Assembly: GCF_011682065.1 (NCBI RefSeq)
Contig: NZ_VUYU01000036.1
Location: 1-64,000, forward strand
Source: Massilia rubra
GTDB lineage: Bacteria; Pseudomonadota; Gammaproteobacteria; Burkholderiales; Burkholderiaceae_D
DNA length: 64,000 nt
Direction of reading: 5' to 3'
The notes under the pieces were generated by a model that saw only the letters and a program-made list of their open reading frames with translations, ran no database searches and was not told where the DNA came from. The translations under genes were made by a program, and so were the position numbers. How positions within the stretch are numbered: the stretch's first letter is position 1; every line of letters starts with the position of its first letter. Shown here in pieces: positions 5,450 to 46,544 of the stretch.

Positions 5450-6397
5450 TTATTGCTTGCCGCGGCCGGCGAACAGGAAAAATCCGATCACCAGCACCCA
5501 GCAGGTGCCGCCGACGGCGTATTTGACATTGATCGGTATCACAGCCGAGGCGGACCAGAAGGCTTCGATGAAGGCGGCCAGGAAGGTCATCAGGCTACCG
5601 CCGACGATGACCGGGAACATGTACTGGCTGGTCTCGTGCAGGGCGTGGGCGCGCGTGCGCCGGCCCGGATGGATCAGCGCCAGCCCGAGGCGGATGCCGG
5701 ACATGCCGCACAACAGCAGCCCGGTGACTTCGACACTGGCGTGGGTGATCACGAACGACCAGAACTGGTGCGCGGTGGCCGGGTCGCGGCTCAGCCAGGC
5801 GGCGATCACGCCCAGGTGCATGCCGTTGAAAGCGACGCTGACGAGGGCCGGAATGCCACCGAAGATGCCGCCGGCGAAGGTGCGAAAGCCGATCGAGACG
5901 TTGTTCCAGATGTAGTGGCCGAACATCATCACGTCGCCTTCGCTGCCGCCGCGCCCGACGCTGGCCTTGCCCGGCTGGTACATGTCGCGATATCCGTTGA
6001 GCTCGCTGGCGGAGGCGAAGCTGTAGGCCCACTGCGGCTTGAACCAGATCAGCAGGCCGACCCCGAGCGCGACCCCGAAAAACGCCACGCAGGTCAGCAG
6101 CAGCAAGCGCCATTCGGCGCGCACGCGGCAGGGAAAATCGACCAGCATCCAGCGCACCAGCGTATTCGGGCGCTCGATCGCGGTGCCGTACAGGCGCCGG
6201 TGGCAGGCGCCGACCAGTTTTTGCAGATAATCGGTGAGGGCCGGCGAATAGCCGCGCTGGCTCGACAGCGCCAGGCACTGGCACAGGCGGCGATACAGGG
6301 CCGGCAGGGCGCGCTGGTCGGTGCCGGCGCCCTCGAGCAGGGCGCTGATCTCGGTCCAGAGGGCGGCGTTGTCGGCTTCGAACTGTTGCTGTTTCAT
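5450..6397 (-). CDS. SpoIIM (stage II sporulation protein M) family membrane protein
   Basis: This 315-residue protein has a soluble N-terminal third and then five or so hydrophobic segments. These include the family-typical stretches FGHYIWNNVSIGFRTFAGG and FVITHASVEVTGLLLCG. The SpoIIM superfamily is widespread in non-sporulating bacteria, where it sits in MoxR/DUF58/RDD clusters and is presumed to be an integral membrane scaffold. Sporulation is not implied. It overlaps the RDD gene by 4 bases on its upstream side and is separated from DUF4129 by 9 bases. Confidence 0.88.
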   Translation of the reverse strand: MKQQQFEADNAALWTEISALLEGAGTDQRALPALYRRLCQCLALSSQRGYSPALTDYLQKLVGACHRRLYGTAIERPNTLVRWMLVDFPCRVRAEWRLLLLTCVAFFGVALGVGLLIWFKPQWAYSFASASELNGYRDMYQPGKASVGRGGSEGDVMMFGHYIWNNVSIGFRTFAGGIFGGIPALVSVAFNGMHLGVIAAWLSRDPATAHQFWSFVITHASVEVTGLLLCGMSGIRLGLALIHPGRRTRAHALHETSQYMFPVIVGGSLMTFLAAFIEAFWSASAVIPINVKYAVGGTCWVLVIGFFLFAGRGKQ

Positions 6398-7065
6398 TTG
6401 TTAAAGCCTGCCACGTAGCCGCGCATGCGTTCGACGGAATCGGCGCCCTGGGCGCCGGTCAGCGGTTCGGCGATGGTGCCCAGCTCGGCCATGCGGTCGA
6501 GCGGCAGCCGGTTTTCGCGTTCGAACAGGTCGATCAGGGTGCGCTGCTGGTCCGGGCTGAGCGGGAAAGGCAGCGGCAGCGGGTCGGTCGAGGGCGGGGT
6601 CGGGCGCGGCATGGGTTTTTCGAAATAGATGACCTGGGTGCCGGCCACGATGTCGCCCAGGCGGCGAAAACGCACATCGAACAGCATGCACACCAGGCCG
6701 CTGGCGTACAGGAACGGCAGGAAGTCGGCCACCAGCAGCAGGTTGCGCAGGGTCGATTCGCGCCAGCCGACCGGCAAGCCGTCGCTGCGCACCACTTCCA
6801 GGCCGAGCGCGCGCTTGCCCAGCGTGCGGCCATTGAAATACACTTCGCTGATGATCGGGTAACCCCAGTAGGAAACGAACAGGATGACCAGGAACAGGCC
6901 GCTGCCGAGTTTGCCGCTGGGCATGATCAGCTGGGCCAGTCCGCAGAACAGCAGCCAGACCAGCACATCGATCAGCCAGGCGGCCGAACGCAGGAACGGG
7001 CCGGCGGGCGTCAGTTGCAGGCTCACGCCTTCGGGCGTGGTCAGGGACAGGCGGCCGTCTAGCAA
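6394..7065 (-). CDS. RDD family membrane protein
   Basis: This 223-residue protein is the first gene of the envelope operon. The N-terminal half carries the RDD domain: R-S-A-A-W-L-I-D near residues 26-34 (the Arg-Asp signature), a second helix around 55-75, then the GRTLGKRALGLEVV motif. The C-terminal 60 residues are soluble and proline-rich. The start is a TTG preceded by AAGAGG at suitable spacing; no in-frame ATG lies upstream. RDD proteins are small integral membrane proteins, some implicated in transport. Here the context ties it to the MoxR cluster. Its promoter should lie in 7066-7225. Confidence 0.87.
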   Translation of the reverse strand: MLDGRLSLTTPEGVSLQLTPAGPFLRSAAWLIDVLVWLLFCGLAQLIMPSGKLGSGLFLVILFVSYWGYPIISEVYFNGRTLGKRALGLEVVRSDGLPVGWRESTLRNLLLVADFLPFLYASGLVCMLFDVRFRRLGDIVAGTQVIYFEKPMPRPTPPSTDPLPLPFPLSPDQQRTLIDLFERENRLPLDRMAELGTIAEPLTGAQGADSVERMRGYVAGFNK

Positions 7066-7330
7066 GCGGGTGCCTCTTTGCGCTGCCTGGATGCGACTGG
7101 TGTGATGACCGCCATGCTTATACCGTGTTAAATTTACTGTAGGATGTATTTATTGTAACCAAGAAACGATGTAACGATGGCAAAAATGTGAGAATTACAG
7201 CGCATTTGTTGGGAATGGACCACTTTTGCGGCCATGTTGCCAGCTTGGGTGTTGCATCGATGCAAGGCATGCCGGGTGCGCGACGCTGCGAGTATACTGC
7301 GCCGGCGCGGGTCCCGTCACAGATTACCGG

Positions 7331-8017
7331 GTGGATTTTTTGAACAGAAAATTGATCATTGGCGTGTGCATCGCCGCCGCCGCCGCCTCGGTGGCGCAGG
7401 TGCCGGACAAGCATGCGGCGCCGGCGTCCGGTGCGCCGGCTTTTCCGCGTCACTTGCTGGCCGATGCGGGCAGTTGCCCGCTGCCGGCGTGGCCGCGCGA
7501 AGCGCTGCTGTACGACCTGCAGGGCAGCACCACGGTGTCGTTCGCGATCGGGCCCGACGGCGCGGTGGAGCAGGCGCGCCTGCTGCGCGGCAGCGGCTGG
7601 AGCATGCTCGACGAGGCGGCCCTGCGCGCCATCGCCGCCTGCCGTTTCAAGGCCGGGCTCGATGCGGCAGAGCGCGCCGGGCCGTATCCGATGCAGTTCG
7701 CCTGGAAGCTCGACGGCGAGGCCGGCGTGGCGCCGCTGCTGCGCGCCGGCAGTTGCCGGGAATCGGCGCGGTTTGCGCGCTTTGTCCCAGGGGCGACGGG
7801 GTCCGCTACGGCGCCGGGCGGCGCTGGCGGCGTGCTGGTGCGCTTCATGGTGGGCGAGGGCGGCGTGCCCACGCGCGTAGCCGCCGAAACGAACGGGCAG
7901 GCGCCGGCGCTGGTGGCCGAGGCGCTCGACTTCATCCGCTCATGCCGCTTCGATGACGACGCCGCCAGTCCGGGCGAGCGCAGCGCCAGCCTGAGCGGAC
8001 GCGTGCTGGGGCATTAG
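7331..8017 (+). CDS. Secreted protein with two TonB-C-like domains
   Basis: The reading frame opens with a hydrophobic leader (KLIIGVCIAAAAASVA), so the likely start is the GTG at 7331 or the TTG at 7340; a longer in-frame extension to 7226 lacks signal character. The first module (about residues 45-125) resembles a TonB C-terminal domain, with the pattern GSTTVSFAIGPDG then a CRF motif. A second, weaker copy follows (GGVLVRFMVGEGG then SCRF). There is no proline-rich linker or anchoring helix like that of a true TonB, so energy transduction is doubtful. It is probably a periplasmic protein of unknown role. Its stop codon directly abuts the next gene's TTG start. Confidence 0.7.
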   Translation: MDFLNRKLIIGVCIAAAAASVAQVPDKHAAPASGAPAFPRHLLADAGSCPLPAWPREALLYDLQGSTTVSFAIGPDGAVEQARLLRGSGWSMLDEAALRAIAACRFKAGLDAAERAGPYPMQFAWKLDGEAGVAPLLRAGSCRESARFARFVPGATGSATAPGGAGGVLVRFMVGEGGVPTRVAAETNGQAPALVAEALDFIRSCRFDDDAASPGERSASLSGRVLGH

Positions 8018-8833
8018 TTGGACATCGCGCGCCTTGAAAACAAACTGATTGTCGTCAGCGAGCCGGTCGGCGTGGCCGCCTACGACTTCGACCTTGGCCT
8101 GCATGTCGCCTGCACCCATCCGTACCGGATCGAGGGGGAAGAAACGTGCGTGCTGCGCATTGGCCCGATTGCCGATTACGCCGCCGAGTTCGAGGACAAG
8201 CTGGGCATGGGGCTAAGGCTGGTCAATTCCCCCCAGGAGCATGTGCGCGCGAGCGAGCTGGAAGCGTGGTACCCGCTGCTCGGCGCGCTCACGCCGCGCA
8301 CCGAGGTGTTCGACAGCCTGCCATCGGCCGACACGATCGAGGCCTCGTTCGCGTGGCCGGTGTTCATGAAAGGCTCGCGCCAGACCAGCAAGCATAACCC
8401 CGACCTGTCGGTGATCCGCAGCCGCGCGCATTACGAACTCGCCGCGCAGCTGTACCGGGACGATCCGATCCTGCACTGGCAAAAGCCGGTGATCCGCGAA
8501 TTCGTGGCGCTCGAACCGGTGCGCGGGCAGGTGGCCGGCAAGGTCCAGCCATCGGTCGAATACCGCTCGTTCTGGTGGCACGGGCACTGCGTGGGATGGG
8601 GGCGCTACTGGAACCAGGTGGCGCCGTACGCCTGCGCCGACGAGCATGCCGGACGGGCCCTGGCCGCGCAAGCCGCCGCGCTGATGGCGGTGCCGTTCCT
8701 GGTGGTCGATGTGGCCAAAACGGCCGACGGGCGCTGGATCGTCATCGAATGCAACGACGCCCAGGAGTCCGGCTACGCGGGGATCGCGCCCCAATTGCTG
8801 TGGCGCGAGCTGCTGGCGCGCATCGACGCTTGA
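8018..8833 (+). CDS. ATP-grasp domain-containing protein
   Basis: This 271-residue protein has an ATP-grasp C-terminal half. The pattern WPVFMKGSRQTSKHNPDLSV carries the nucleotide-binding lysine region, PVIREFVAL is the hinge strand, and WIVIECNDAQESGYAGI is the metal-binding Glu/Asn segment. This matches uncharacterised ATP-grasp proteins related to RimK/DUF4343, which ligate a carboxylate to an amine using ATP; the substrate is unknown. Translation appears to begin at a TTG immediately after the TAG of the previous gene, so expression probably depends on translational coupling. Confidence 0.8.
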   Translation: MDIARLENKLIVVSEPVGVAAYDFDLGLHVACTHPYRIEGEETCVLRIGPIADYAAEFEDKLGMGLRLVNSPQEHVRASELEAWYPLLGALTPRTEVFDSLPSADTIEASFAWPVFMKGSRQTSKHNPDLSVIRSRAHYELAAQLYRDDPILHWQKPVIREFVALEPVRGQVAGKVQPSVEYRSFWWHGHCVGWGRYWNQVAPYACADEHAGRALAAQAAALMAVPFLVVDVAKTADGRWIVIECNDAQESGYAGIAPQLLWRELLARIDA

Positions 8834-8854
8834 GCTCGCGCTTACCGCTCTCGC

Positions 8855-9598
8855 TTACTTCTTGCACCAGGCCTTGTAGCGCTGCACAACCGTCGCGGTA
8901 TTGAGCTCGTCGATGACATCGTCGTCGCCATCGCCGTCGGTGACCTGGAACTGCACCATCACCGCGTCGCGTTCGGCGGGGCTGCCGAACAGGCCTTCCT
9001 CGGCCAGCATCCGCAGCGCTTGCGCGCAGGCGCCGAACACCCAGTGGCGCAGCGCGTCGATGTCGACTTCGTTCGGAATATCGCGGTGATACGGCAGGAT
9101 CATGCGGTAGGCCACGTCCAGGTAGGCGCCTTCTTCGAAGAACGACCATTCGCCCGGATTGAAACGGATATAGTCGGCGCCGCCGTCGTCGGCCAGCGCC
9201 TGTTCGCTGTTGGCCATGGGGACGATGGTCATGGCGCTCTCGTCGCTCATCAGGGCGAAGCCGTTCATGGTGTGATCCGGATGGGCCGCGCGCATGGCGT
9301 TGAAGGCGTTGCGCGCGCCGTCGCGGATTTCGGCGGCCAGCAGGGCGGCGTCCAGCCGGTTCAGGTCGATCTCAAGCTGGCGCGTGGGGGTGAATCCGGC
9401 CGCCACGGCCTCGGCGCACAGGGCGTCGTAGCGCTCTTGCGCGGCGGCCGGGCTGGCCAGTTCGTCGAGGGCGTCAGTGCCCCAGGTTTCGGCCATGCCG
9501 GTGGCGTGCCAGACGGCCTTGCCGAGCAGGCGGACTTCGAAGAACTGGCGCGGTTTGGCGCCGATGTGTTTGTGGAAAAGTGACCAGTTTGTCGTCAT
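8855..9598 (-). CDS. DUF4303 domain-containing protein
   Basis: This 247-residue soluble protein opens with a WGR-like segment (FFEVRLLGKAVWHATG). A DUF4303-like domain from about residue 80 follows, with the typical NGFALMSDESAMTIVPMANS strand and an FNPGEWSF box. No signal peptide, membrane span or catalytic motif is evident. DUF4303 proteins are often found near polymorphic toxin or immunity genes, but no toxin is adjacent here. The gene is convergent with the ATP-grasp gene. Function is unknown. Confidence 0.7.
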   Translation of the reverse strand: MTTNWSLFHKHIGAKPRQFFEVRLLGKAVWHATGMAETWGTDALDELASPAAAQERYDALCAEAVAAGFTPTRQLEIDLNRLDAALLAAEIRDGARNAFNAMRAAHPDHTMNGFALMSDESAMTIVPMANSEQALADDGGADYIRFNPGEWSFFEEGAYLDVAYRMILPYHRDIPNEVDIDALRHWVFGACAQALRMLAEEGLFGSPAERDAVMVQFQVTDGDGDDDVIDELNTATVVQRYKAWCKK

Positions 9599-9810
9599 TG
9601 TTGCGTGTGTGCTTTATGGTAGGGAAATGTGGGGCGGCGCGGCCAGTTTCGGAAAGAAGTATGCAGGTCGCGCCGGCTTCTGTCACGCCCAATCTGGGAT
9701 GCCCGCATGCTCACGGGCCATGCCGATGACAGCGCGCCGGCCCGGCTGTTGCATTTATCTTAACGTGGGCTATGATGGCGCTTCTTCATCCAACGAGTGA
9801 AAGCGGCGCC

Positions 9811-10458
9811 ATGTCCATCGCGGTCGACAGCAGGTATTTGCAGGTTTTGTTCGAGGAACATGGGATCGCCAGCGTGGTCGTCAACGGCTGGGTGCTGCCG
9901 GAAGGCCGGCGGCCGGCCATCCGCGCGGACTGGTACCAGAACGGGAACGGGCTGACGGGTGTGTTCAGCGTTCTCATCCTGATGCCCGACGGGCTGAGAA
10001 TCGAGGAGGCTTGCGCCGGCCTGGGCGCTGGCGAGGAGGGCATCAAGGATGGCTTCGCCAAGTTCATGAACAATTCCTTTCACGTCCTGCTGGCCGCGCT
10101 ATGGCAGCGCGATGCCTCCGAACGGGTGGTGACCAAAACCGTGACCACGCGCAGCGGCCGCTACACCGGCTACTTCGGCCCCACCTGCGGCTACGGAACG
10201 CCGCATTTTCCGGCGGACCTGTCGGAGCGGATCGAGCGCTGCCTCGAAGAGGCCAGCCTGACCGACGAGCTGCACTGGATGCGCTTCTTCGTTTCCAACT
10301 ACCAGAAGGCATTCACGTTCGAGGCGCTGAACAACGGCGAGCCCTGGGAGCACGGATTGCGCGCCCTGCAAGCGTGCCCGTGGACGCCGGACGAGCGCTA
10401 TTACGTTGTGCGGGTGTTCCTGATGCTGCGCCGCGCCGACGAACCGGCACTAGCCTAG
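9811..10458 (+). CDS. DUF6348-like family protein
   Basis: This 215-residue soluble protein is read from the ATG at 9811; an alternative ATG at 9772 would add 13 residues. It resembles the DUF6348 family: VLPEGRRPAIRADWYQNGNGLTGVFSV is followed by a conserved GFAKFMNNSFHVLLAAL block. No catalytic residues are recognisable. The family assignment is from memory and is moderate. The stop codon lies in an 11-bp tandem duplication that also supplies the stop of the convergent DUF5071 gene. Confidence 0.6.
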   Translation: MSIAVDSRYLQVLFEEHGIASVVVNGWVLPEGRRPAIRADWYQNGNGLTGVFSVLILMPDGLRIEEACAGLGAGEEGIKDGFAKFMNNSFHVLLAALWQRDASERVVTKTVTTRSGRYTGYFGPTCGYGTPHFPADLSERIERCLEEASLTDELHWMRFFVSNYQKAFTFEALNNGEPWEHGLRALQACPWTPDERYYVVRVFLMLRRADEPALA

Positions 10459-10460
10459 CG

Positions 10461-10901
10461 CTAGCCTAGCGCTTCCAGCGCGGCCTGGTCGACCTCTTCG
10501 GCGCGGTCCGACGCGCTCGGGTGCGCGGCGAGGCGGCGCAGGTTGGCGGCCAGCGCATCGCGCAGGGCCGGCGAGCGCATCACCACTTGCAAGATGACGT
10601 TGGTTTTCCAGATGCCGTCATCGCCATCGAGCACCTGCCTGACGGCGGGCGCGAGCGGCGCACCGATGCTGGCCAGGAACGACGCGAGTGGCGTCGCCAC
10701 CGGCCAGTTCATATCCTGCACCCATTCCAGCAAAGCGGGCAGCAGCGGGAGCACGGCGGGCCACCCGGCTGCGATGGCCGCTTGCACAGCGTCCAGATCG
10801 TGCTTATGTGCGGGAATCAAGGCTACGGGAATCAAGGGCGATGGCGCAGGCATGGGGTTTGGCGTGGACGCCGTTGCCGGCAACAGCGGCAACGGTATCA
10901 C
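10461..10901 (-). CDS. DUF5071 domain-containing protein
   Basis: The protein has up to 146 residues. The conserved core begins at LIPAHKHDLDAV and continues through PALLEWVQDMNWPVATPLA, the signature of DUF5071, a small helical HEAT-like family. The longest frame starts at a GTG (10901). An ATG at 10853 would remove a proline-rich leader that is probably not part of the domain, and neither start has a clear ribosome-binding site. The family is of unknown function and often sits in immunity-like or accessory loci. No partner is evident. Confidence 0.65.
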   Translation of the reverse strand: MIPLPLLPATASTPNPMPAPSPLIPVALIPAHKHDLDAVQAAIAAGWPAVLPLLPALLEWVQDMNWPVATPLASFLASIGAPLAPAVRQVLDGDDGIWKTNVILQVVMRSPALRDALAANLRRLAAHPSASDRAEEVDQAALEALG

Positions 10902-10917
10902 GAGCGCGCGCTGAAGG

Positions 10918-12531
10918 TCAACGCGCGCCGGCGCCGCTGGTGAGGGCGGCCGGCAGGTTGTCCACGTTGTCGAGCTTGTACGGGAACAGGGGGGTGTCGC
11001 CGAATACCTTGGCGCCGGTATCCTTGTCGGGATCGGTTTCCGACTTGCCGGTGTAGCGGTTGGAGGCGATGTTGGCGTCGATGAAGGCGTCGCTATTGTT
11101 CCAGTGCGGCTTGGCGGTGTTGGCGAAGAAATTGCCTTCGACTTTCACCTGGGCTCCGCCGCCGGCGCCGATGGCGAAGTAGGGCACGTCCAGCCAGTAG
11201 TTGTTGAACAGGTGGGTGCGCGAGGCGGCCCCGTCGAGCTTCGGATTGCGGCCCGAGGTCTTGTTCCAGAAGTTGTGGTGCATGCTCACCTGCGAGTTGC
11301 TGAAGGCGTTGGTGTAGTGGTGCTGGTTGCCGCAGACGGCCGGGTTGACGCCGTCGAACCGGTTCCAGCTCAGGGTCACGTTCTTGCTGTCCTGGATGTC
11401 GATGTGGCCGTCGCTGATCAGGTTAAAGCGCACATGGTCGACCCACACGTGGCTCGACTTGCTGATGGTGATGCCGTCGCCCGCTTCGACCAGGCCCGGA
11501 TTGATGTTTTCGATGGCCAGGTTGCGGATGATGACATTCTTCGCGCCGGAAAGGTTGAGCGTGGCGCCGACGATGCGCGCGTCCTTGTTCAGGCCGACCA
11601 GGGTCTTGTTGGAGCCGACCCGGATATTGATTTCATCGCGCGGACGCATGAAGCGCGTTTCGCTGGTCGAGCCGAGTTCCTTGCAGGTCTGCTCGCCGAC
11701 CGGAAGGCGGTAGGTGCTCTTGCCGGGGTCCTGGTAGGTCGGGCAGGCTACCGCGCAGGTGCTTTCGGAACGCACGGCGGTGCGGCAATCGATGGTCGTG
11801 CCGGCGGGAATCTGGATCACGGCGGCGGCGCTCGATTGCAGGGCGCTCTTCAACGCGCTGCAGGAGCTCACGCTGACCGGCGCGGTGTTGCCGCCGCCGG
11901 TGGTGCCGCTCAAGCCGTCAGGGCCGGCCTGGGCCGCGAAGCCGTCGGCCGCCGGGCCGCCGCAGGAACCGTTGGTGGGGTTGAAGTACCAGCGTTGCAG
12001 GCCGCCGCCGGTGTCGCTGGCCTGGTAGGCGCGCGAGCCGCTGTTGTTGTCGGCCACGGTGAGCGACTTGCTGGAGTGGCGGGCGACGACGTTGTAGCCG
12101 CCGCCGGTCGATTTTTTGAGCAGCCATTGCTGGTTCTGGGCGCCGGTGGCGTTCCACTGGATGATTTTCGCGCCGTCGCCGGCCGCCAGGTTCAGCACGT
12201 CGAGCAGCAGGCCGCTGTGCCTGGCCTGCATGGTCCAGTAACCGTTGCCGGCGTCGCGCAGGGTGAACTGCTGGTTGGCGCTGGCGGTGTAGCCCCACTG
12301 CTGGACTTCGGCCGCGCCCTGGGTCGAGCCGGCCACGACGTCGAGCGCTTTGCCGGAGGCGGCGTTGACGATGCTGTACATGCCGCCGTTGACCACGGCG
12401 GCGTTGCAATTGGCGGCGCTGGCCGGGTTGGCCAGCAGGTACAGGGGCATGGCCAGCAAGGCGGCCAAGGTGGTCAGGCGGCGTGCGGGAAGCAGGCGCG
12501 AGGGCGCGTCTGAAACAGGAAAATTGCTCAT
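10918..12531 (-). CDS. Secreted pectate lyase (polysaccharide lyase family 1) with ricin-type lectin domain
   Basis: The 537-residue precursor has a signal peptide (cleavage near NPASA/ANCN, residue about 39). A ricin-type beta-trefoil (CBM13-like) domain follows at about 45-185, with repeated QQW/QRW motifs (NQQWLLKK, LQRWYFNP). A PL1 right-handed beta-helix covers about 215-520. PL1 hallmarks are VWVDHVRF (the calcium/substrate WxDH segment) and SGRNPKLDG, which contains the catalytic arginine. It should cleave de-esterified pectin by beta-elimination outside the cell. RBS-like CGGAG precedes the ATG. This points to plant-polymer utilisation; no pectin transporter is nearby. Confidence 0.9.
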   Translation of the reverse strand: MSNFPVSDAPSRLLPARRLTTLAALLAMPLYLLANPASAANCNAAVVNGGMYSIVNAASGKALDVVAGSTQGAAEVQQWGYTASANQQFTLRDAGNGYWTMQARHSGLLLDVLNLAAGDGAKIIQWNATGAQNQQWLLKKSTGGGYNVVARHSSKSLTVADNNSGSRAYQASDTGGGLQRWYFNPTNGSCGGPAADGFAAQAGPDGLSGTTGGGNTAPVSVSSCSALKSALQSSAAAVIQIPAGTTIDCRTAVRSESTCAVACPTYQDPGKSTYRLPVGEQTCKELGSTSETRFMRPRDEINIRVGSNKTLVGLNKDARIVGATLNLSGAKNVIIRNLAIENINPGLVEAGDGITISKSSHVWVDHVRFNLISDGHIDIQDSKNVTLSWNRFDGVNPAVCGNQHHYTNAFSNSQVSMHHNFWNKTSGRNPKLDGAASRTHLFNNYWLDVPYFAIGAGGGAQVKVEGNFFANTAKPHWNNSDAFIDANIASNRYTGKSETDPDKDTGAKVFGDTPLFPYKLDNVDNLPAALTSGAGAR

Positions 12532-12696
12532 CTGGGTGGAACTCCGGGGAAGATTGTCAATCTGGCTACGTGGTGGACTCGCTTGTGTTGGCGAAATGAA
12601 AAGAAAACGATGCTATCAGCAAAGTTATGCATATAAATATAGGCATTTTCTCGTCATGCATGCCAATTTCGTATGCCTTGTCTTGACTGCGCCACC
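12532..12696. other. Intergenic region upstream of the pectate lyase and downstream of the GGDEF-EAL gene
   Basis: This 165-bp region is relatively AT-rich (for example ATATAAATATAGGC around 12630) and must hold the lyase promoter on the minus strand. No convincing terminator, operator or small ORF was found. Confidence 0.4.
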
Positions 12697-14800
12697 TCAC
12701 GCGCCGCATGGCAGCGCCGCTTCGGCCGCCTCATGCTTGCCGCGCCGGAGCAATTCCCTGATCTGGGCCGCCGCCAGCGGCTTGCCGTAGTAATAGCCCT
12801 GCGCCTTGTCGCAGCCGTTGGCGCGTAAAAACTGCCCTTGCTCCGGCGTTTCGATCCCTTCGGCCACGGTTTCCATCTTCAGGCTCCTGGCGAGGGCGAT
12901 GATGGCGCGGGTGATGGCCGCGTCTTCGGTGCTGTGCGGCAGGTCCTGCACGAAGCTGCGGTCGATCTTCAGGGCGCTGACCGGGAAGGTCTTGAGGTAG
13001 CTCATCGACGAGTAGCCGGTGCCGAAATCGTCGATCGCCAGCGCGATGCCGGCGCGCTTGAGCGTGTGCAGCTTGTCGATCATGCCGGCCGAGGCGTCCA
13101 TCAGCATGCTTTCGGTCAGTTCCAGTTCCAGCCAGCGGGCGTCGATGCCGCTGTCGTCGACGCTGGCCAGCACCGAGGCGACCAGGCCGTCTTCGCTCAA
13201 CTGGCGCCCGGACAGATTGATCGACATGCGGATCGCGTGGCCCTCGTCATGCCAGGCGCGCAGTTCGCGGCAGGCTTCGCGCAGCACCCATTCGCCGATC
13301 GCCACGATCATGCCGGATTCTTCGGCCACGGGAATGAAGTCGGCCGGGCTGATCAGGCCAAGGTCCGGATGAATCCAGCGGATCAGCGCTTCGGCGCCGC
13401 AGATGGCGCCGCTGCGCAGGTCGATCTGCGGCTGGTAGTGCAAGACGAATTCCTTGCGTTCGAGCGCGCGCCGCAGGTTGTTGTCTAGCGTGAAGCGCTT
13501 GCGCGCGTCTTCCTGCATGCTGTGGGTGAATAGCCGGTAGGCGTTCTTGCCGCTGTTTTTGGCGTAGTACATGGCGCTGTCGGCGTATTTGAGCAACTCG
13601 TGCATGCCGGCGGCGTGGTCGGGATAGACGCTGATGCCGATGCTTGGCGCTGATGTGGATTTCGTGGCCCGAGATGGCGATTGGCTGGGCAATCTTGAGC
13701 AGGCATTTTTCGGCCACCACGGCGGCATCGTCGATGTGGTGCACGTTTTCGAGGATGATGGCGAACTCGTCGCCGCCAATGCGGGCGATGGCGTCGCCGG
13801 GGCGCAAGGTGTCGGTGAGGCTGCGCGAGACCAGGCGCAGCAGGTCGTCGCCGATATCGTGCCCGAGCGTGTCGTTGACGGCCTTGAAGTTGTCGAGGTC
13901 GATGAACATCACCACCGCGCGTTCCTGGCGCTGCCCGGCGCGCGCGATGACCTCTTCGAGCCGCTCGTTAAAGAAGTGGCGGTTGTGCAGCTGGGTCACG
14001 TTGTCGAAGTGGGCCAGGCGGTCGAGCTTGACCTCGACCCGCTTGCGCTCGCTGATTTCGGCCTCCAGTTCGCTTTCGCGCTTCTGGATGCGGTCGAGCA
14101 TGGTGTTGAAGGTCGTCGACAGCGTGCCGATATCGGCCAGCGAACTGACTTCGGCGCGGATCGCGTAGTCGCCCAGGCGCGAAATCTGCGCGCTGGTGTC
14201 CGACAGCGCGCGCAGGGGATCGGTAATGAAGCGCTGCAGGCGCGAGAGCACCAGGTGGGCGATGGCGAGCACGGCGAGCATGACCGGAATGGTGAGCGCC
14301 AGGTACAGCCCAAGCTGGTGGTAGACGCTGGCGAGCGAGCTTTGCACGATGAGCGTGCCGACCCGCTGGCGCTTGACGGTCAAGGGCGCGAGCACGGTGA
14401 CGTGGCGGTAGGAGAGCGTGTAGCCGCCAGCGCTCGCTGGCGGCGGCGCGAGCGGCGTTAGCTGTGCCGCGCCGGGGTCGCGCAGGTAGCTGGCGAAGCG
14501 GCTGTTGGTGTTGTCGTACACCACGGCCGACTGCACATCGGACACCACGCGCAGGGCCGCCAGGATTTCCCTGGCGGCGAGGCGGTCGCCGAAGAGCATG
14601 GCGGCCGACATGTTTTCGCTGCCCATGGCCGCTTGCGCCTGGGTCTGGCGCACCAGGGCCGAGGTGAAGAAGTAACTCTGGATTCCGAGCAGGAACAGGG
14701 TCGAGAGCAGGATCACGGTCCCGCTGGTGACCAGGTTGGCCCATTTGAGCTTGGTGCTCAGGGTTTGATTCCTGCGGTTGCGCTGCCATGGGCGTTTCAT
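12697..14800 (-). pseudogene. CHASE8-HAMP-GGDEF-EAL cyclic-di-GMP protein, frameshifted
   Basis: Two overlapping frames encode one protein. The first (14800 to about 13645) has a transmembrane helix near residue 30, a CHASE8-like periplasmic sensor, a second helix near 170, a HAMP segment and a GGDEF domain with an intact IGGDEF site. The second frame (to 12697) continues the GGDEF end (SIGISVYPDHAAG) and an EAL domain with EALIRW and DDFGTGYSS. Reading GCC-AGC instead of GCCAAGC at 13642-13648 restores one frame, so a single A was inserted there, or is a sequencing error. It is the third gene of a receptor/YfiR/GGDEF-EAL operon, 20 bp after yfiR. If real, the break removes the EAL domain. 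Confidence 0.85.
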
Positions 14801-17420: not shown

Positions 17421-17856
17421 GTCCAGGTCCTGCGCGGTGGCCGCCAAGCGATGCCGGGGCGGAAGGCCCGCGGGTTAGGCGGGAATGTTTCCAGTGGTTA
17501 ACTTAGTGGCCCAGTGTAAGATTGTCCGACACGCGGCTTGTTGATTCAGGTTAAGCAAGGACGAGCGGGGTGGGATTGCTGCAACAGGGCTGGCGGGCTG
17601 GCAAATTGTCGGTTTGGTATCGTTATCGGGTACGCGCCGTCGTGCCGGAAGCGTCTTTGCGGTCGATGGGCTCCCGGGACGTTAAGGGGAGGCTATTTGC
17701 TTGATAATCAACAATGAGGTCATCGCTGTTCCAGCCTGTCGCGCGTGTCGTGAGCGCCGGAAATCGATGACATATAGAAGCAGCGAATTGGCTGGCACTT
17801 TATCTCCCTGCGCCGCAGTGCGTGCCGCGTCGGGAGAAGACAACTTGGGGAATGTA
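17421..17856. other. Divergent intergenic region between the receptor operon and the small membrane protein
   Basis: This 436-bp region should contain the receptor promoter on the minus strand and a promoter for the small membrane protein on the plus strand. An open frame runs through 17701-17856 ahead of the chosen ATG at 17857 but lacks protein character. No riboswitch or terminator was recognised. Confidence 0.35.
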
Positions 17857-18141
17857 ATGAACGGCTTAATCTACGGTGCATGCCTGCTGATATTGATGTG
17901 TTTCGGCATGCTGTATGCCCTTTTCAAGGGCCGCAAGAGCTGGTGGAGCAGGATAAAGTCGGTCGGGGTCGTGGTGCTGATCAATTTCGCGGTCATCGGG
18001 GTCGTCATCCTGTTGGATGAGTTCATGCCCGAGTCGATCAAGGACCTCCTGAACACACCGATTCCCTGGTTGATGGGGGCGATTCCGGGTTGGTATTACG
18101 CGTATCAGGTGGGCCGGAGCGAGGTCGCCGCGCCAAGGTGA
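17857..18141 (+). CDS. Small two-span membrane protein of unknown function
   Basis: The 94-residue product starts at an ATG with GGGGAA at good spacing. It has two hydrophobic helices (GLIYGACLLILMCFGMLYAL and VVVLINFAVIGVVIL) separated by a basic loop, and then a short amphipathic region ending in GWYYAYQVGRS. The family is not recognised. It marks the left edge of the composition change leading into the RT island, although its own base composition is only slightly lower than that of the core genes. Confidence 0.55.
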   Translation: MNGLIYGACLLILMCFGMLYALFKGRKSWWSRIKSVGVVVLINFAVIGVVILLDEFMPESIKDLLNTPIPWLMGAIPGWYYAYQVGRSEVAAPR

Positions 18142-18728
18142 GTGGGACTACATCGAGTGTCTTGGAAGTGAGCAAGCACATGCGCGGGATGTATTCCGAA
18201 TAGGACTGCGGGAGAATACTGAAGATGCCATGGAGCAAGGCGGAGAGCTCCCTTGGCCCAAGCTGAAAAACAAGCACATTGCTTAGACATGGTCGAGATC
18301 ATAGGGCCTCAGGTTGCTTGTGCGGAAGAAACTGTCTCCGACATGGTCTTCCTTCATAGCTCTTTGTCCGAGTTAAGTGACCCTTTGATTGGTCAGCGAA
18401 GCATGCTTACGAAGCGTGACTGGTTGCCGCTTCGTGGCGACAATTTCATACGAAGGCTACTTTTTGAACGCTTTGAAGCAATAGCAATAGTCCTGCACGC
18501 AATGGCTCTGCAGCGGTGTGGCGGGTGGACAACGTCCAGATGGTATTTATTTACACTAGTTTTATCATTGCGAGCAAAGTGAGGTTGCTTTAGAGCTCGA
18601 TTTTGAATTTCGGCATTTGCTCCATACAGGCGCTTTAGAATGGCCGTACTAGCCTGTACGGAGCACATGCAACATTTACACGACACGGTAGCGAATTCAC
18701 CAAAAATAGGAAACCCCATTGCACATTT
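18142..18728 (+). other. Island edge: gene debris and a direct-repeat copy
   Basis: This 587-bp stretch lacks a convincing intact gene. A start-less open frame at about 18145-18285 translates as ...EWDYIECLGSEQAHARDV... and ends at TAG, suggesting the tail of a decayed gene. A 109-residue ORF (18253-18582) has no recognisable domain. It contains LLFERFEA, which parallels LLFERREA in the debris at 23449-23547. The underlying DNA (18456-18471) is identical over 16 bases to 23451-23466. Confidence 0.4.
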
Positions 18729-21700
18729 TCATCTTGCCGGCAATTTCCTGCGCAAATATGACAGCCTGAATCCCTCTGGAACAGGCTTAAATTTGTCACC
18801 TTCTAGCGGCCATCGCTTCGCGCGGCTCTGAAATGCGCGCAGCGAATCAATATCTAATGTGGCAGCTATTACAAAATCGTTGTCTCCACCGCGGACGCGC
18901 GCCAGCTCCCGGAGAAATGATTGTTTGGCAGGCGAACGAACTCGACTATCTCCATATTTTCTATTATTAACCAATATGGTGTAAGCATGTACGTCAAGCG
19001 CAGTAGACTCGATAAGTGATGAAAACGTGTCTATATCTTGGTTCCAACTTAGCACCATCAAAGCATCAACATCGCCTTGCAGTCTCACTCTAGCTTTGCT
19101 ATTCTGGAGTTCGGAGCATACCATTATTCCAAAATGGGTTCCATTATGAATGTAAATTGGTTTGGTTGGCTTTTTTCGTCCTCCACGATTACCTGAATAT
19201 CGCCAAACCTTACCGTGAATTTTCAATAAATTTTCATCTTCGGCTACTGCAGGTTCAAGCTTTGGTTGCCAAATTTTGACTGTCGCTGGGAAGCCTAATC
19301 GGTTATCTGTAAGCGTAAGGCATGCCTCGCTCAAAACTTCTCTCGTACCATTGAAGTGTCGATATTCTGTGCCGGCGATCATGCTGATCCCGACAGCACT
19401 CAATCGTGATGCTATACTATTTACCCAACGAATCGGAATTGATAATTCAGGAAATAGAACGTAATCTGGCCTTGGGCGTAGCCTGATCGTTTGATTAACT
19501 AAATCCGAAATGCGTCGATATCTATCGAGCGACAAATTCGGCTTTCCACTGGCCATTGCTGCCCAGTCACTGTCATCGGTTTTAATATTTGTCAATGCAA
19601 CTATAATCTTGGTTTTGTTTTTCGTGCCAATGCGTAAAAATTTTGGCAAATGCTTTCCCTTTTCAGGAGATCGAATCGGTTCCGCCTGCTCCAGTGCCAA
19701 TAATGTCGGTTTCACCCAGATGCCTCGCATCGCCTGCGAATACTTGGCCCAAATAACGGCAGGTCGCTCTTCGGTTGTTTTTCCACGATGGTTCGGTAAA
19801 CCCACACATTCCGGCGCCAGTTCCGCTATCTCATCAGGGGAGTACGGTCGAGTCGGGAAAATATAAGGGAGATAACTCTCTCCCCGTTGTTCTTTCTTTT
19901 TCTCTACCCCAAATCTGGATTTTTCTGTAGAGGATAAAAATTCTTTAAGTGAATCAACATCGATTAAGCCAGCGGAGTCAAAATGTTCTAATATGGATTG
20001 CTCTCTTAATTTTTTTCTTTTATCTAATAATGCTGATGCTACCAATCGATTGATAACGTGTTTGTATGGGGTTTTCCCTAAATCTGCCATCGATATTAAC
20101 GGGGCTTTGGCATAAAAATCGTTAAAACTGAATTTGAAATTAAGTATGTCTGCGGTGTTTGTAAATTGTTCAATTATTCCATCCATAAAAATCTTAGCCA
20201 CCCGCGACTCTCGCTTTGTTCGTCGATTGCTAAGTAGACGATTAGGGTCATAGTAGCGCGCTGCAGAATCGATGAAAATCCAATTAAGCGTCCCCTTTAA
20301 GTATCGCCATAGTTGCGCTCCAGATCTTGCTTCTTTACCATTAAGCGATATTTCACCACCCTGAGTTACCGTCTCAGACAGATGATCAATGGATGCGTAT
20401 GCATGCACGACTATTCTTTCAGCTTCTGCCCATTCATTCAGGCTAATCGCGAAACCCAATAGTCGAGGAAGATAGTTAAAGTGTTCGAAAATATTATCTG
20501 GGCGTAAAATGTGATTGTGAGCAAATTCGTAGAATTCCATCCGCTGTTTGACCCATTCTGATGGGGGTAAATCTCTAGCAAGAGTCTCAACGTGGCGGAG
20601 TTGAAGCGCCCAGCTTAGCCGCCGGATGGTTAAACCATCAGCGCGACGTAAAGTGTCCGCTCGCTCACTCATACTACTCGAAGCGGAAAGGACCCGAGCT
20701 GCAGTCGAATCTTCAAGTTGATCAGGCGACGGCATAAGGCGATGTTCACTTGATAGTTCGTATATTTCTTTTTCGATACTATCGAGAAGATCAAGTCCAG
20801 CTTGACCGTTGAGGATAAATAGCTTCTGTTTTTCGGATTGAAGTCTGATTTTTGAGTTTGCTTGAAGACTTTTTCCAAGCTGTATTTCCCAGATGCCTTT
20901 ATCGGCAGATTTACCCTTTTTAAATATTTTCCCGCCAATGCGTTCCCTTAGGAATTCCATGAAGGCCGCAGTGTTATTTATTTTTCCGGTGTCATGAAAA
21001 ACCAGAAACATATCATCCACATATCTACCGTAATGAATAGGAGATAACTTTTCTTTTATTAAGGCATCCCATCGGTATAGCAGCGAATTTGAGATAATTC
21101 TGGTAGCGGTCAGGCCAATAGCGAGCCCTCCACTAATGCGAAAATTTCCGCTTGTAAGTTTCTTAGAAAATTTCTCGGCTCCTCGTGCCCAATTAGCTAA
21201 GAATTCAGCTAACTGTTCAGTAAATTGGCACTCAGATTTTGAAAGGGTCAAATTAAGCGTATTTTGAAGGTCAATTGATGAAATTACTTTTGGATCGATA
21301 TAGTGATAGTAACTTTTTAAGTCTAAAGAGACAGCTACAATTTCGCGATCTTTTTCTAGTTCCCCTCGGATTGCTTTAAGCCCGTCATTTCTCCAATTTT
21401 GATATGGTTGAAAATAGGGCGGGAATGATCCAATTGCGCTAATATGAAATGGTTGAAATGCACTCTTGTCAAGGTTCTCGTCATTGCTTATGCGTCTCAA
21501 ACGCGCTCCGTAGCAGCATGCTTCTAACGCCGCATCAAATTTATGCCCGATCATATTAATCCATAATGCCGAAATAATATGAGCATTAACAGGAAAGTCA
21601 CCGATTATGCGAAATTCCGGGATAATATCTTTTGTTTTATGCAAGCTTTCAAAGGCTCGCTCAGGTGATGAGAAATGAATGTGCCCACTGTTTTTAGAAT

Positions 21701-21962
21701 CTTTTGCACGAGTTGATAATTTTTTCGGTACTACTCGAAATTCGCCTATTAGTTTTTCAGTTTTGGCGAATCCATCATTGTTACGCAATGATTCTAACAA
21801 AGCGCGCAAATTTTTGAGCAAATCCTGTTCATAATCGGCAAATTTTATCGCACTGGGAAACGTGTTCTCGAAAAAACAGTCGGCTTTCGCTTTGCGGTAA
21901 GCTACAAGCATGTCTGCTAAAGTAATCTCTTCCCATCCGTCAAATTTTGGCTGGTATTTCAT
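18729..21962 (-). CDS. Reverse transcriptase-nitrilase fusion (DRT type 1 / UG1-like anti-phage protein)
   Basis: The protein has 1077 residues. The reverse-transcriptase domain spans about 100-390, with palm motif A (VSLDLKSYYHYID, Asp214), motif B (SGGLAIGLTATRIISN, 277-292) and motif C (YVDD, 314-317). A mostly helical middle region covers about 400-780. A C-terminal carbon-nitrogen hydrolase (nitrilase) domain covers about 785-1050, with a complete Glu-Lys-Cys triad: Glu839 (LFPELS), Lys901 (WQPKLEP) and Cys949 (MVCSEL). This domain order defines type 1 defence-associated reverse transcriptases; other nitrilase-bearing UG groups are possible. The gene is far more AT-rich than its neighbours and sits alone between IS debris, which indicates horizontal transfer. 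No retron msr/msd or partner gene is evident. Confidence 0.9.
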   Translation of the reverse strand: MKYQPKFDGWEEITLADMLVAYRKAKADCFFENTFPSAIKFADYEQDLLKNLRALLESLRNNDGFAKTEKLIGEFRVVPKKLSTRAKDSKNSGHIHFSSPERAFESLHKTKDIIPEFRIIGDFPVNAHIISALWINMIGHKFDAALEACCYGARLRRISNDENLDKSAFQPFHISAIGSFPPYFQPYQNWRNDGLKAIRGELEKDREIVAVSLDLKSYYHYIDPKVISSIDLQNTLNLTLSKSECQFTEQLAEFLANWARGAEKFSKKLTSGNFRISGGLAIGLTATRIISNSLLYRWDALIKEKLSPIHYGRYVDDMFLVFHDTGKINNTAAFMEFLRERIGGKIFKKGKSADKGIWEIQLGKSLQANSKIRLQSEKQKLFILNGQAGLDLLDSIEKEIYELSSEHRLMPSPDQLEDSTAARVLSASSSMSERADTLRRADGLTIRRLSWALQLRHVETLARDLPPSEWVKQRMEFYEFAHNHILRPDNIFEHFNYLPRLLGFAISLNEWAEAERIVVHAYASIDHLSETVTQGGEISLNGKEARSGAQLWRYLKGTLNWIFIDSAARYYDPNRLLSNRRTKRESRVAKIFMDGIIEQFTNTADILNFKFSFNDFYAKAPLISMADLGKTPYKHVINRLVASALLDKRKKLREQSILEHFDSAGLIDVDSLKEFLSSTEKSRFGVEKKKEQRGESYLPYIFPTRPYSPDEIAELAPECVGLPNHRGKTTEERPAVIWAKYSQAMRGIWVKPTLLALEQAEPIRSPEKGKHLPKFLRIGTKNKTKIIVALTNIKTDDSDWAAMASGKPNLSLDRYRRISDLVNQTIRLRPRPDYVLFPELSIPIRWVNSIASRLSAVGISMIAGTEYRHFNGTREVLSEACLTLTDNRLGFPATVKIWQPKLEPAVAEDENLLKIHGKVWRYSGNRGGRKKPTKPIYIHNGTHFGIMVCSELQNSKARVRLQGDVDALMVLSWNQDIDTFSSLIESTALDVHAYTILVNNRKYGDSRVRSPAKQSFLRELARVRGGDNDFVIAATLDIDSLRAFQSRAKRWPLEGDKFKPVPEGFRLSYLRRKLPAR

Positions 21963-22044
21963 AGCTCACCCTCTAATATATATTTTTGCGTATGCCGAGA
22001 GGCACAATTATTATAAATCTAATTTTGATTTAGATTCCAAAAAA

Positions 22045-22770
22045 ATCTGGATCTTGGCTGTGACCACGTCGAGCTTCTGGCTGCTCTGCGCCAAGCTCCT
22101 GACCTGCGGCACGTAGAACGAGCGCCGCAGGTAGCTGTAGAAGCGTTCGACCTTGCCCTTGGTCTTGGCCCGGTACGGCTGGCACCGCTTGATGACGAAG
22201 CCGCTATGTCTGGCGTAGTTCAGGAGGCCGGTATGGAAACGGTGTTCCCCATAGGCATCGCGCTCAAGCACGACCGTCTTCATGTTGTCGTACAGGACCC
22301 GATGGGTCACGTCCCCGAACGCGGCAGGGTTTCCACCTTCATGCTGCTGAGCTGGCCCGGCTGAAGTCCAAGGTGGCGCAGAAGGCGTGCAGCGGCGTGC
22401 TGCCCTTACGGAACTCGACCCAGTCGACTTGCATCTGCTCGCCCATCGCCGTCTCGAAACGCGTCACCGGATCCGCAGGCGGCGCTGGCCGCAATGTCCT
22501 CAGGGGCGCGCGCAGCTGGCTCATCCAGCCCTGGTAGCCACGTGCCGCGATCTCGCGGTACAACACGGTCCTCGGAATCGTATACGGTGTTAGCCGTCTT
22601 GCGCTCCCTCAGATACTGCTCGAACTGCTCCAGCTTCCTCTGGCGTTTCACATTGCGCTCGTATTTGGGCACGGCATTGAGCGCCAAGGCCGCCGCACCG
22701 TGTTCACTGCGCAGCCAACCTGGGCGGCGATCTGCCGCAGGCTTTACCCATGCGTCCTCAGTAGGTGAAC
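22045..22770 (-). pseudogene. IS21-family transposase istA remnant
   Basis: Broken frames on the minus strand read in IstA order. First comes a helix-turn-helix (SLRQIAAQVG, around 22730-22760). KYERNVKRQRKLEQFEQYLRER follows, split to obey the length limit as KYERNVKRQRKLEQ and FEQYLRER. Next is the DDE-region segment GEQMQVDWVEFRKG, then DNMKTVVLERDAYG and YRAKTKGKVERFYSYLRR. At least two frameshifts and a stop in the HTH separate these. Homology stops near 22045, abutting the upstream region of the RT gene, and no istB is present. The element is dead and 3'-truncated. Confidence 0.8.
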
Positions 22771-23000
22771 TTACACGTACACTTCTTTGGGTTTCAAGGC
22801 CGCTCCGCAAAGCGGCCATCTTCTCAAATCGGTGTATCAGTTTTCAATCGCCGCGTGTATCAGTTTACAACCGCTGCTGACAACTTTGCCCGCGTTCTCG
22901 GGACGCTCACCCACGCCTTGATAGCCGGCGTCGCCCTATAGTGGATCCACGATTGGAGACAGCAGTTTAAGCTATGGTTCTCAACGGAGGATCGCAGGGA

Positions 23001-23115
23001 ATGACGGAAGCAAAGAAGCGGAAAGTGCATAGTGAGGATTTCAAGGCGAAGGTCGGTCTGGAGGCCGTACGCGATGTCAAGACGGTTAACGAGATCGCCC
23101 AGCTGCACGGCGTAG
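23001..23115 (+). pseudogene. IS3-family transposase OrfA N-terminal fragment
   Basis: Starting at the ATG at 23001 the frame reads TEAKKRKVHSEDFKAKVGLE and then VRDVKTVNEIAQLHGV, the helix-turn-helix start of IS3/IS911-type OrfA proteins. Homology ends near 23115, where the sequence jumps into unrelated coding debris. No OrfB follows, so this is a truncated remnant. Confidence 0.7.
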
Positions 23116-23127
23116 CCGGATCGATAC

Positions 23128-23547
23128 TTTTACGAGGCGTGGGAAGTAACGGCGGTGCCGGACAGCCTAGAGTCTACGTTGCTATCCGATGAAGAGGCGA
23201 GCAAGCTCGTGAGCACACGGCTGGTGATCGAGCCGAACTAGGCCCGCTTCGGGACGGCCGATTGCCTGGATCCGTCGTTTAAGGTAGCGCAGCGTCGGCT
23301 CTATTCATATTTTGTGAAGCAATACAACCTCGAACCGAAGAGGCTGCCGTTGCCGGACAGGGTCCGCGAGATCACGGTCAAGTTCCGGGATTAGGTGGGC
23401 ATTAATTTTTTATGTGCGGGACAGGGAGCAGCTGGTCCTGCATTGGGGAAGCTACTTTTTGAACGCCGTGAAGCAAAAGCGCTGATGCGAGCGGAATTGA
23501 AACGCCGTGGCGCGCTAATGGGGCATCATGGGATACCGCCCAAGTAG
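23128..23547 (+). pseudogene. Decayed ORF of unknown family with two in-frame TAG stops
   Basis: A single reading frame gives protein-like sequence in three blocks. The first ends ...STRLVIEPN before TAG at 23239. The second (ARFGTADCLDPSFKVAQRR to ITVKFRD) ends at TAG at 23392. The third (KLLFERREAKALMRAELKRR to GHHGIPPK) ends at TAG at 23545. The composition is not random and both internal stops are TAG, so this looks like one roughly 140-residue gene tail broken by two point mutations. The family is not recognised. Confidence 0.4.
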
Positions 23548-23628
23548 CCGCGATACTATAGGCGTACTAAAGGTTAGGCGAAATCCTTTTTGATTGCGAA
23601 GAAACCAGCTGAGACCGGATCAGTTCTA

Positions 23629-23664
23629 AAACAAAAAAGCAGTTACGATCGCTCGTAACTGCTT
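23629..23664 (-). terminator. Rho-independent terminator of the tRNA-Lys transcript
   Basis: On the minus strand a perfect 12-bp stem (AAGCAGTTACGA / TCGTAACTGCTT) with a 4-base loop is followed by a run of T (TTTTTTGTTTT). It lies about 23 bases past the CCA end of tRNA-Lys and isolates the island from the tol-pal/tRNA transcript. Confidence 0.85.
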
Positions 23665-23686
23665 CATTTGCTTACTGCTCTATTCG

Positions 23687-23762
23687 TGGTAGGCCGTGCG
23701 GGATTCGAACCTGCGACCAACGGATTAAAAGTCCGCTGCTCTACCAGCTGAGCTAACGACCC
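23687..23762 (-). tRNA. tRNA-Lys (anticodon TTT)
   Basis: The 76-nt minus-strand sequence begins GGGTCGTTAGCTCAG and contains the anticodon loop CTTTTAA. It has a standard T arm (GGTTCGAATCC) and encodes its own CCA. It follows cpoB at the end of the tol-pal cluster. Its 3' side faces the AT-rich RT/IS island, consistent with a tRNA integration hotspot, although no integrase survives in the window. Confidence 0.97.
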
Positions 23763-30589: not shown

Positions 30590-30700
30590 TTACGTCTCAC
30601 GTAACTGGCGAAAAGTCGCGGCGCATTGCTGCCTGGCGGCGAAAGGTGGGCATCCACCGGGGAACGTGAGATTTCATCAGCCGTTCGCCTGGGCAGCCAC
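30590..30700 (+). promoter_or_regulatory. ZTP (pfl) riboswitch upstream of glyA
   Basis: The leader contains the conserved parts of the ZTP riboswitch in order. TCACGTAACTGGCG (30597-30610) pairs with CGTGAG (30665-30670). CCACCGGGGAACGTGAG (30654-30670) follows, and then the 3' block CCGTTCGCCTGGGCAG (30681-30696). ZTP riboswitches sense the folate-stress alarmone ZTP/ZMP and activate purine and one-carbon genes, glyA among them. The start codon follows about 100 nt later; no clear terminator stem is visible, so control may act on translation. Confidence 0.85.
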
Positions 30701-30803
30701 CGATGGAAGCGCACGATGAGGCTGCCTGTTCCATTTCCGACGGCTCCCCTCATTCGACCCTTGCAATCAGGTGCCTCGCACTCTTATCGATTGGAGTTTT
30801 TTC

Positions 30804-46535: not shown

Positions 46536-46544
46536 GCATTGCTC

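Follow-up and report, generated by a model that had tools for sequence, protein, structure and literature searches.

Among the UG/Abi reverse transcriptases (RTs), nitrilase fusions have been named for classes 1 and 5 (PMC8934634), and UG5 is named in PMC4244168. A UG5 RT with a C-terminal nitrilase and a partner with one transmembrane (TM) segment, carried by a P4-like satellite, protects E. coli, and its authors described it as reminiscent of DRT type I, yet of another clade (PMC9122126). The mechanism of DRT1 has now been published: DNA synthesis is primed by the protein itself, on Ser402, and uses no template; the defence needs both active sites and acts by abortive infection; filaments form in dependence on DNA, with a domain-swapped C-terminal lid; and the activity requires a T4 helicase (PMC13275509). 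In the same work, purified DRT5S and DRT5L carried covalently attached DNA when no template was added, also with RNase A. From their names, we infer that these two proteins are UG5-small and UG5-large. Here we describe a gene of Massilia rubra located in a stretch of 64,000 nucleotides (assembly GCF_011682065.1, contig NZ_VUYU01000036.1, positions 1 to 64,000; hereafter "the window"). The gene encodes an RT and a nitrilase in one protein of 1,077 residues and, judged by its sequence, is a UG5-nitrilase of the class 3 UG/Abi RTs and not a UG1 enzyme.

We assign the protein to UG5 instead of UG1 because the profile scores and the RT tree agree. The PADLOC profile RT_UG5-nitrilase (PDLC03780) matches residues 2-1075 of the protein (a query of 1,076 residues, with the start methionine omitted) with E=0 and 1,023.6 bits, over profile positions 11-901 of 907. 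Lesser scores were obtained with the second UG5-nitrilase model (178.8 bits), UG5-small (118.8 bits), Drt1a (82.3 bits, partial), and the best retron model (28.5 bits), whereas a true DRT1 from another genome (L203) scores 1,380 bits with Drt1a. The tree has 32 rows: 15 of the 80 UG5 proteins described below, four DRT1 loci, seven of eight retron-profile loci, five of eight group II intron loci, and L018 (L250, a retron, and L240, L242, and L243, all group II, were left out; L014, L015, L021, and L033 were scored and omitted). All 15 UG5 rows form one clade (support 95/88), in which the window RT falls in a set with L051 and L040 (99/95), and the four DRT1 rows form a separate clade (99/97) that is sister to UG5 (98/96). 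The retron and group II rows, seven and five in number, lie elsewhere (94/88); the group II clade itself is weakly supported (88/55), and the tool cautions about long branches where DRT1 meets the group II/retron side. The original prediction had called the gene DRT type 1 or UG1, an identity that is ruled out by the partial Drt1a score and the separate sister clades. Its broader claim of kinship with nitrilase-bearing anti-phage RTs is borne out, and in the profile search and phylogeny that it proposed the RT did not fall with retrons or group II introns. A retron identity is excluded by the low retron score and the position of all the retron rows. A group II intron identity is excluded likewise by the tree and by Pfam, in which the window protein matches no family at E up to 1 and therefore has no maturase domain.

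The defence kind is already known, and the window gene is one more UG5-nitrilase, with about 63% identity to its nearest relatives. It resembles the described form (PADLOC; the RT-nitrilase plus 1TM of the P4-like satellite) in its full-length profile match, both active sites, Ser405, and the C-terminal motif, and differs from it in having no detected TM partner. DRT1 (UG1; Drt1a; PDB 9YFD) shares the order of RT, helical middle part, and nitrilase, a lid-like motif, and a single conserved linker serine past motif D, whereas it has its own clade and profile, a different linker sequence, and 1,229-1,296 amino acids. The RTs of retrons and group II introns have the RT fold in common with the window protein, but not the clade.

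Of at least 401 confirmed relatives, the best 80 were kept. A set of 78 rows contains 73 proteins of at least 980 amino acids from the 82 loci L043-L124, together with the window protein, L011, L012, L040, and L042; nine short or broken proteins (L056, L064, L068, L073, L075, L098, L109, L112, and L113) were dropped. The addition of L125 and L126 gives the 80-row set, and L013 lies outside both. Because many rows are close kin, 80 of 80 does not mean 80 independent events. The features discussed below are as follows.

18729..21962, minus strand: UG5-nitrilase gene, 1,077 amino acids (ORF, PADLOC profile, RT tree)
20808..21605, minus strand: RT part, about residues 120-385, bounds approximate (motif positions and model)
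21321..21323, minus strand: RT motif A, Asp214 (78/78)
21012..21023, minus strand: RT motif C, YVDD, residues 314-317 (D316 and D317 78/78)
20748..20750, minus strand: Ser405, predicted DNA-priming residue (80/80; in HHalign opposite Ser426 of the L206 DRT1, with near-zero posterior)
19653..20807, minus strand: mostly helical middle part, about residues 386-770 (model)
18825..19616, minus strand: nitrilase domain, about residues 783-1046 (PADLOC profile, model, Foldseek)
19446..19448, minus strand: nitrilase Glu839 (78/78)
19260..19262, minus strand: nitrilase Lys901 (78/78)
19239..19241, minus strand: nitrilase Glu908 (78/78)
19116..19118, minus strand: nitrilase Cys949 (78/78)
18768..18791, minus strand: C-terminal lid-like motif, residues 1058-1065 (K..P.[GAND][FY]; 79/80 UG5, 4/4 DRT1)
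18148..23672, unstranded: segment missing in the nearest relative, G002, save a 79-bp scrap at 23394-23470 (DNA comparison)
22011..22310, minus strand: partial IS21 transposase (NF033546 positions 178-262 of 294)

According to the list of open reading frames (ORFs), the gene is a single unbroken frame with an ATG start, the RT lying on the N-terminal side and the nitrilase on the C-terminal side. The RT residues Asp214 and YVDD are both present, and so are the nitrilase residues Glu839, Lys901, Glu908, and Cys949. D214, Y314, D316, D317, E839, K901, and C949 are each kept in 78 of the 78 aligned UG5-nitrilases, the window protein included, and the fusion of an RT to an intact nitrilase, as originally proposed, is thereby upheld. 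E908, which had gone unmentioned, is likewise invariant (78/78), and we take it to complete the nitrilase tetrad. An AlphaFold2 model built from 52 sequences has a mean predicted local distance difference test score (pLDDT) of 87.0 and a predicted template modelling score (pTM) of 0.89. Foldseek returned 599 matches for it at E up to 10, of which 88 have E values no higher than 0.001; the top ranks go to amidases and nitrilases, and the RTs among the first 50 are those of DGR, DRT9, G2L4, AbiA, and group II introns. By sequence comparison, the closest solved chain is the DRT1 structure 9YFD, which the protein itself matches at E=3.8e-6 and a profile of six rows at 1.1e-19.

The C-terminal end gives a second point of contact with DRT1. 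Residues 1058-1065 of the window protein, F-K-P-V-P-E-G-F, fit the pattern K..P.[GAND][FY], which 79 of the 80 UG5 proteins, namely all those that bear a nitrilase, have among their final 60 residues; four of four DRT1 proteins have it too. The lone exception, L126, has no nitrilase. Elsewhere in the 80 proteins, over 77,628 residues, the motif occurs just twice. In the alignment to 9YFD it lands on K1219, P1222, A1223, G1224, and F1225, the A1223 position being a glutamate in the window protein. This is the DRT1 lid, in which the substitutions K1219A and A1223F drop defence to the level of a C-terminal deletion (PMC13275509). Lys1059 and Pro1062 are therefore predicted to be lid residues.

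We consider it probable, at roughly two chances in three, that the gene by itself makes up an anti-phage system of the UG5-nitrilase type, working by analogy as DRT1 does. Needing no RNA template, the RT would attach short DNA of near-random sequence to one of its own serines, for which Ser405 is the predicted candidate. Subunits bearing such DNA would join by their nitrilase domains into oligomers or filaments. Within these, the C-terminal K-x-x-P-x-G-F strand would cover the nitrilase pocket of the neighbour like a lid, so that the enzyme would be assembled and dormant. Phage activity, which in the case of DRT1 and T4 is a single-stranded DNA helicase, would then free the enzyme, and the Glu-Lys-Glu-Cys nitrilase would attack an essential metabolite, so that the infected cell would stop before phage maturation. 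The activity of this protein, the priming on Ser405, the trigger, and the substrate are all predictions. The substrate of the nitrilase, listed as unknown in the original prediction, is still so according to PMC13275509.

The case for Ser405 comes from its conservation. It is invariant in 80 of 80 UG5 proteins, including L125 and the nitrilase-less L126, and between residues 100 and 559 the sole other serine, threonine, or tyrosine at 80/80 is Tyr314 of YVDD. Its retention in L126 points toward a role in the RT reaction. Ser405 stands 27 residues past the invariant Lys378 of UG5; in the DRT1 protein of L206, Ser426, the only invariant linker serine among four DRT1 proteins, stands 27 past Lys399, and in 9YFD Ser402 is 29 residues past Lys373 (numbering taken from the alignment). 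In an HHalign comparison limited to this region, with 98.4% for the region as a whole, Ser405 falls opposite Ser426 of L206. The DRT1 priming loop was not resolved in the map (PMC13275509), and in the model of the window protein a helix at 386-408 is followed by low confidence over 421-440. Our alignment, contrary to the DRT1 authors, would make Ser405 the counterpart of Ser402 of DRT1, and the chances that it primes DNA synthesis appear evenly balanced.

L125 fits the second UG5-nitrilase model of PADLOC end to end (2,254 bits), lies in another UG5 branch, and is presumably a UG5-nitrilase of the P4 type. L126 (UG5-small, 949.6 bits), probably a DRT5S, shares the RT part and Ser405 with the window protein and lacks the nitrilase and the lid motif. 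In the RT tree it pairs with the nitrilase-bearing L125 (100/97), which is consistent with a loss of nitrilase and lid, the serine being retained, in UG5-small. Both proteins are encoded on viral contigs (L126 at 7995-9935, L125 at 1349-4225).

The gene lies on contig C48 as a single copy in the 7.57-Mb source genome, stands alone, and is markedly AT-rich: the three 1-kb blocks of 19001-22000 have 39-44% GC and that of 18001-19000 has 50%, whereas most other blocks of the window have 60-74%. The original view of a solitary, AT-rich, and probably acquired gene in a GC-rich host was right in these respects, and the comparison of related genomes that it called for was carried out. Sixteen same-genus genomes contain no match. 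At E<=0.001, four of 147 other relatives match at all: G017 holds the same family in pieces with an internal stop, G028 two pieces, one with stops, G134 the nitrilase part alone, and G141 a weak match to the RT part. The G134 match (L004, G134:C35:72526-73287) is a 332-codon frame of 40% identity, either a truncated copy or a stand-alone relative. In a class-wide sample 59 of 369 genomes match, the source included, mostly through the RT part, and three besides the source do so at near full length (G347, G395, and, in two pieces, G362). E. coli genomes contain no near DNA match to the gene. A close phage-borne copy was considered and rejected: the phage search gave none, a first scan of viral contigs was empty, and among the best 80 of 116 matches from an alignment-based scan, L123 and L124 alone cover almost all of the query, at about 31%, while L125 and L126 match less well. 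A search of 398 genomes for UG5-small returned nothing at E<=1e-40 and was uninformative, since its controls were silent too.

The nearest relative, G002, lacks the gene and matches the window up to 18147 and again from 23673; the 5.5 kb of the window between these points correspond to about 1.1 kb in G002, with a 79-bp scrap shared inside. The insertion spot has what is presumably a TonB-type receptor gene on one side and a tRNA-Lys on the other. The gene is thus sporadically present, at a strain-variable spot beside a tRNA-Lys. A 30-nt direct repeat (90% identity; 18456-18485 and 23451-23480, 4,995 bp apart) brackets it and is possibly a trace of insertion; its right copy overlaps the scrap common to G002. 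The gene had also been described as framed by dead insertion sequences. This is half supported. On the upstream side, about 50 bp separate the start codon from the end of a partial IS21 transposase (82 bits, under the curated cut-off), and a transposase helix-turn-helix lies below threshold at 22974-23192; on the downstream side, no insertion sequence was identified in the ORF list or in the scan of 17701-18141.

Several observations weigh against the single-gene system proposed above. The UG5 system for which defence was tested includes a partner with one TM segment, and by a crude hydropathy rule the window gene has no TM neighbour; such a neighbour was found in 1/32 clade A and 3/43 clade B loci. 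(Neighbours were viewed for 32 of the 34 clade A rows, L011 and L012 being excluded, and for 44 clade B rows, 35 of which have at least 2 kb on each side, a count that does not include L042, long-flanked too.) The identification of DRT5L as a UG5-nitrilase rests on its name, the term "UG5" being missing from the text of PMC13275509. Expression is uncertain: a scan of 21900-22400 gave no sigma-70-type promoter, where chance alone would give 0.4, and the remains of IS21 begin about 50 bp upstream. A terminator scan was likewise unproductive. As for the priming residue, the HHalign posterior is near zero at the Ser405/Ser426 stretch, the whole-protein HHalign comparison of UG5 with DRT1 misaligned the linker, and HMMER puts Ser402 of 9YFD opposite residue 429 of L206, three off the conserved Ser426. 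In addition, Ser402 is stated not to be conserved in other class 3 RTs (PMC13275509).

The uncertain linker alignment, together with the statement of the DRT1 authors, leads to the explanation that survives best after the one we prefer. The protein would belong to the same family and use the same nitrilase effector, with DNA primed on another residue or residues and the adducts still controlling the nitrilase, while Ser405-Pro411 would be a structural element capping the thumb helix. Pro411 is as strongly conserved as Ser405 (at least 79/80), and Tyr314 is also invariant, though it is part of YVDD. We consider this unlikely, since besides Tyr314 no further serine, threonine, or tyrosine reaches 80/80 within residues 100-559 (beyond that range, the count was made in the 78-row set only).

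A second explanation is that the gene was acquired without partner and promoter and is degraded or silent, on its way to loss. The insertion-sequence debris, the missing promoter match and TM partner, and the stop codons in the matches of G017 and G028 would fit such a course. On the other hand, all 1,077 codons are open and every tested catalytic residue is kept, and a TM neighbour is absent in most relatives too, so that we regard this course as improbable.

The third explanation, a templated RT, retron-like or guided by a non-coding RNA as in the class 2 DRTs, whose complementary DNA would control the nitrilase, recalls the non-coding RNA used by retrons and by DRT2 and DRT9, and is very hard to credit given a tree that groups the window RT with DRT1, the absence of a shared flank, and the finding that DRT5S and DRT5L synthesise DNA when RNase A is present and no template is supplied (PMC13275509). 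No non-coding RNA template is to be expected since the mechanism of DRT1 was published (PMC13275509), and a non-coding RNA partner was rejected as a candidate. Rfam finds nothing in the gene or on either flank; its closest match is the tRNA-Lys at 23690. The 400-bp flanks of the window gene match none of the 32 other clade A loci, and among all 33 matches are confined to a few pairs (L040/L041, L040 or L041 with L046, L060/L062, L049/L050, and L047/L074 over 53 bp). This lack of a shared flank or Rfam match fits template-free synthesis, without proving it.

The neighbours of the relatives also contain genes of other defence systems. Type I restriction-like genes lie upstream in the same direction in eight of 32 clade A loci (L047, L048, L049, L050, L052, L058, L063, and L066), and L046 has one on the opposite strand; those tested score under the curated cut-offs. 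In L049, L050, and L064 a KwaA-like gene, weak and tested in L050 only (26 bits against a cut-off of 100), and another gene stand between the type I-like genes and the RT-nitrilase.

In clade B, the RT-nitrilase gene lies between two parts of pglX in 11 of 44 loci from several genera (L081, L083, L092, L093, L096, L101, L102, L103, L105, L116, and L118), with pglX divided at the same place in each. L081 and L118 are closely related, the contig of L102 is short, and the downstream half of L118 is itself broken. In L083, on a complete chromosome (6049-12760), the upstream and downstream halves match positions 1-634 and 647-1210, respectively, of the 1,210 of BREX-1 PglX, both over the cut-off. 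In E. coli BrxX, two "jaws" span residues 1-660 and 661-1205 (PMC11842806), and the split point is near the boundary between them. In L083, L093, and L102 no other ORF of at least 70 codons lies between the halves; in other loci there are further genes in the gap. L099 shows the downstream part alone, in L122 an intact pglX adjoins the gene, and in L106 and L108 a pglZ-like gene does so; PglZ, BrxC, and BrxL are each over the cut-off in one locus. As a control, 274 genomes contain five BREX-1 pglX genes over the cut-off, four uninterrupted and one broken. The broken gene (G203:C1, L264 557-4375) is in pieces that part close to this split point. It has no RT gene, and its downstream piece begins like the split halves; a split pglX can therefore occur without an RT, in a sample that is small. 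In the source genome, PglX gives no match at E<=1e-30. No description of a UG5 gene nested in a split pglX was found in the literature listings searched or in passages of one BREX survey, a search that does not cover the main UG/Abi classification paper.

Three matches to a retron RT model (E below 1e-40) lie on contigs C64, C107, and C41 of the source genome. Elsewhere in the window there is another low-GC dip (46001-47000, 48%) and a ZMP/ZTP riboswitch (Rfam, 30591-30701, 62.1 bits).

We tentatively suggest, as a view somewhat more doubtful than probable, that all nitrilase-bearing class 3 RTs, UG1 and UG5 alike, may be one self-contained toxin-antitoxin machine, in which the linker serine would carry the antitoxin DNA and the C-terminal lid would gate the nitrilase. 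UG5-small would have kept the serine and dropped the lid, and one UG5 branch would serve as an internal back-up of BREX in the split pglX. If this were true, the split-pglX operon would yield the methyltransferase part, the RT-nitrilase, and the target-recognition part together. For a loosely described family, the comparison gives predictions at the level of residues, with Ser405 as the primer and Lys1059 and Pro1062 in the lid. The solitary form in M. rubra lets the substrate of the nitrilase be sought without a partner, and the related genes nested in split pglX would link the RT-nitrilases to BREX.

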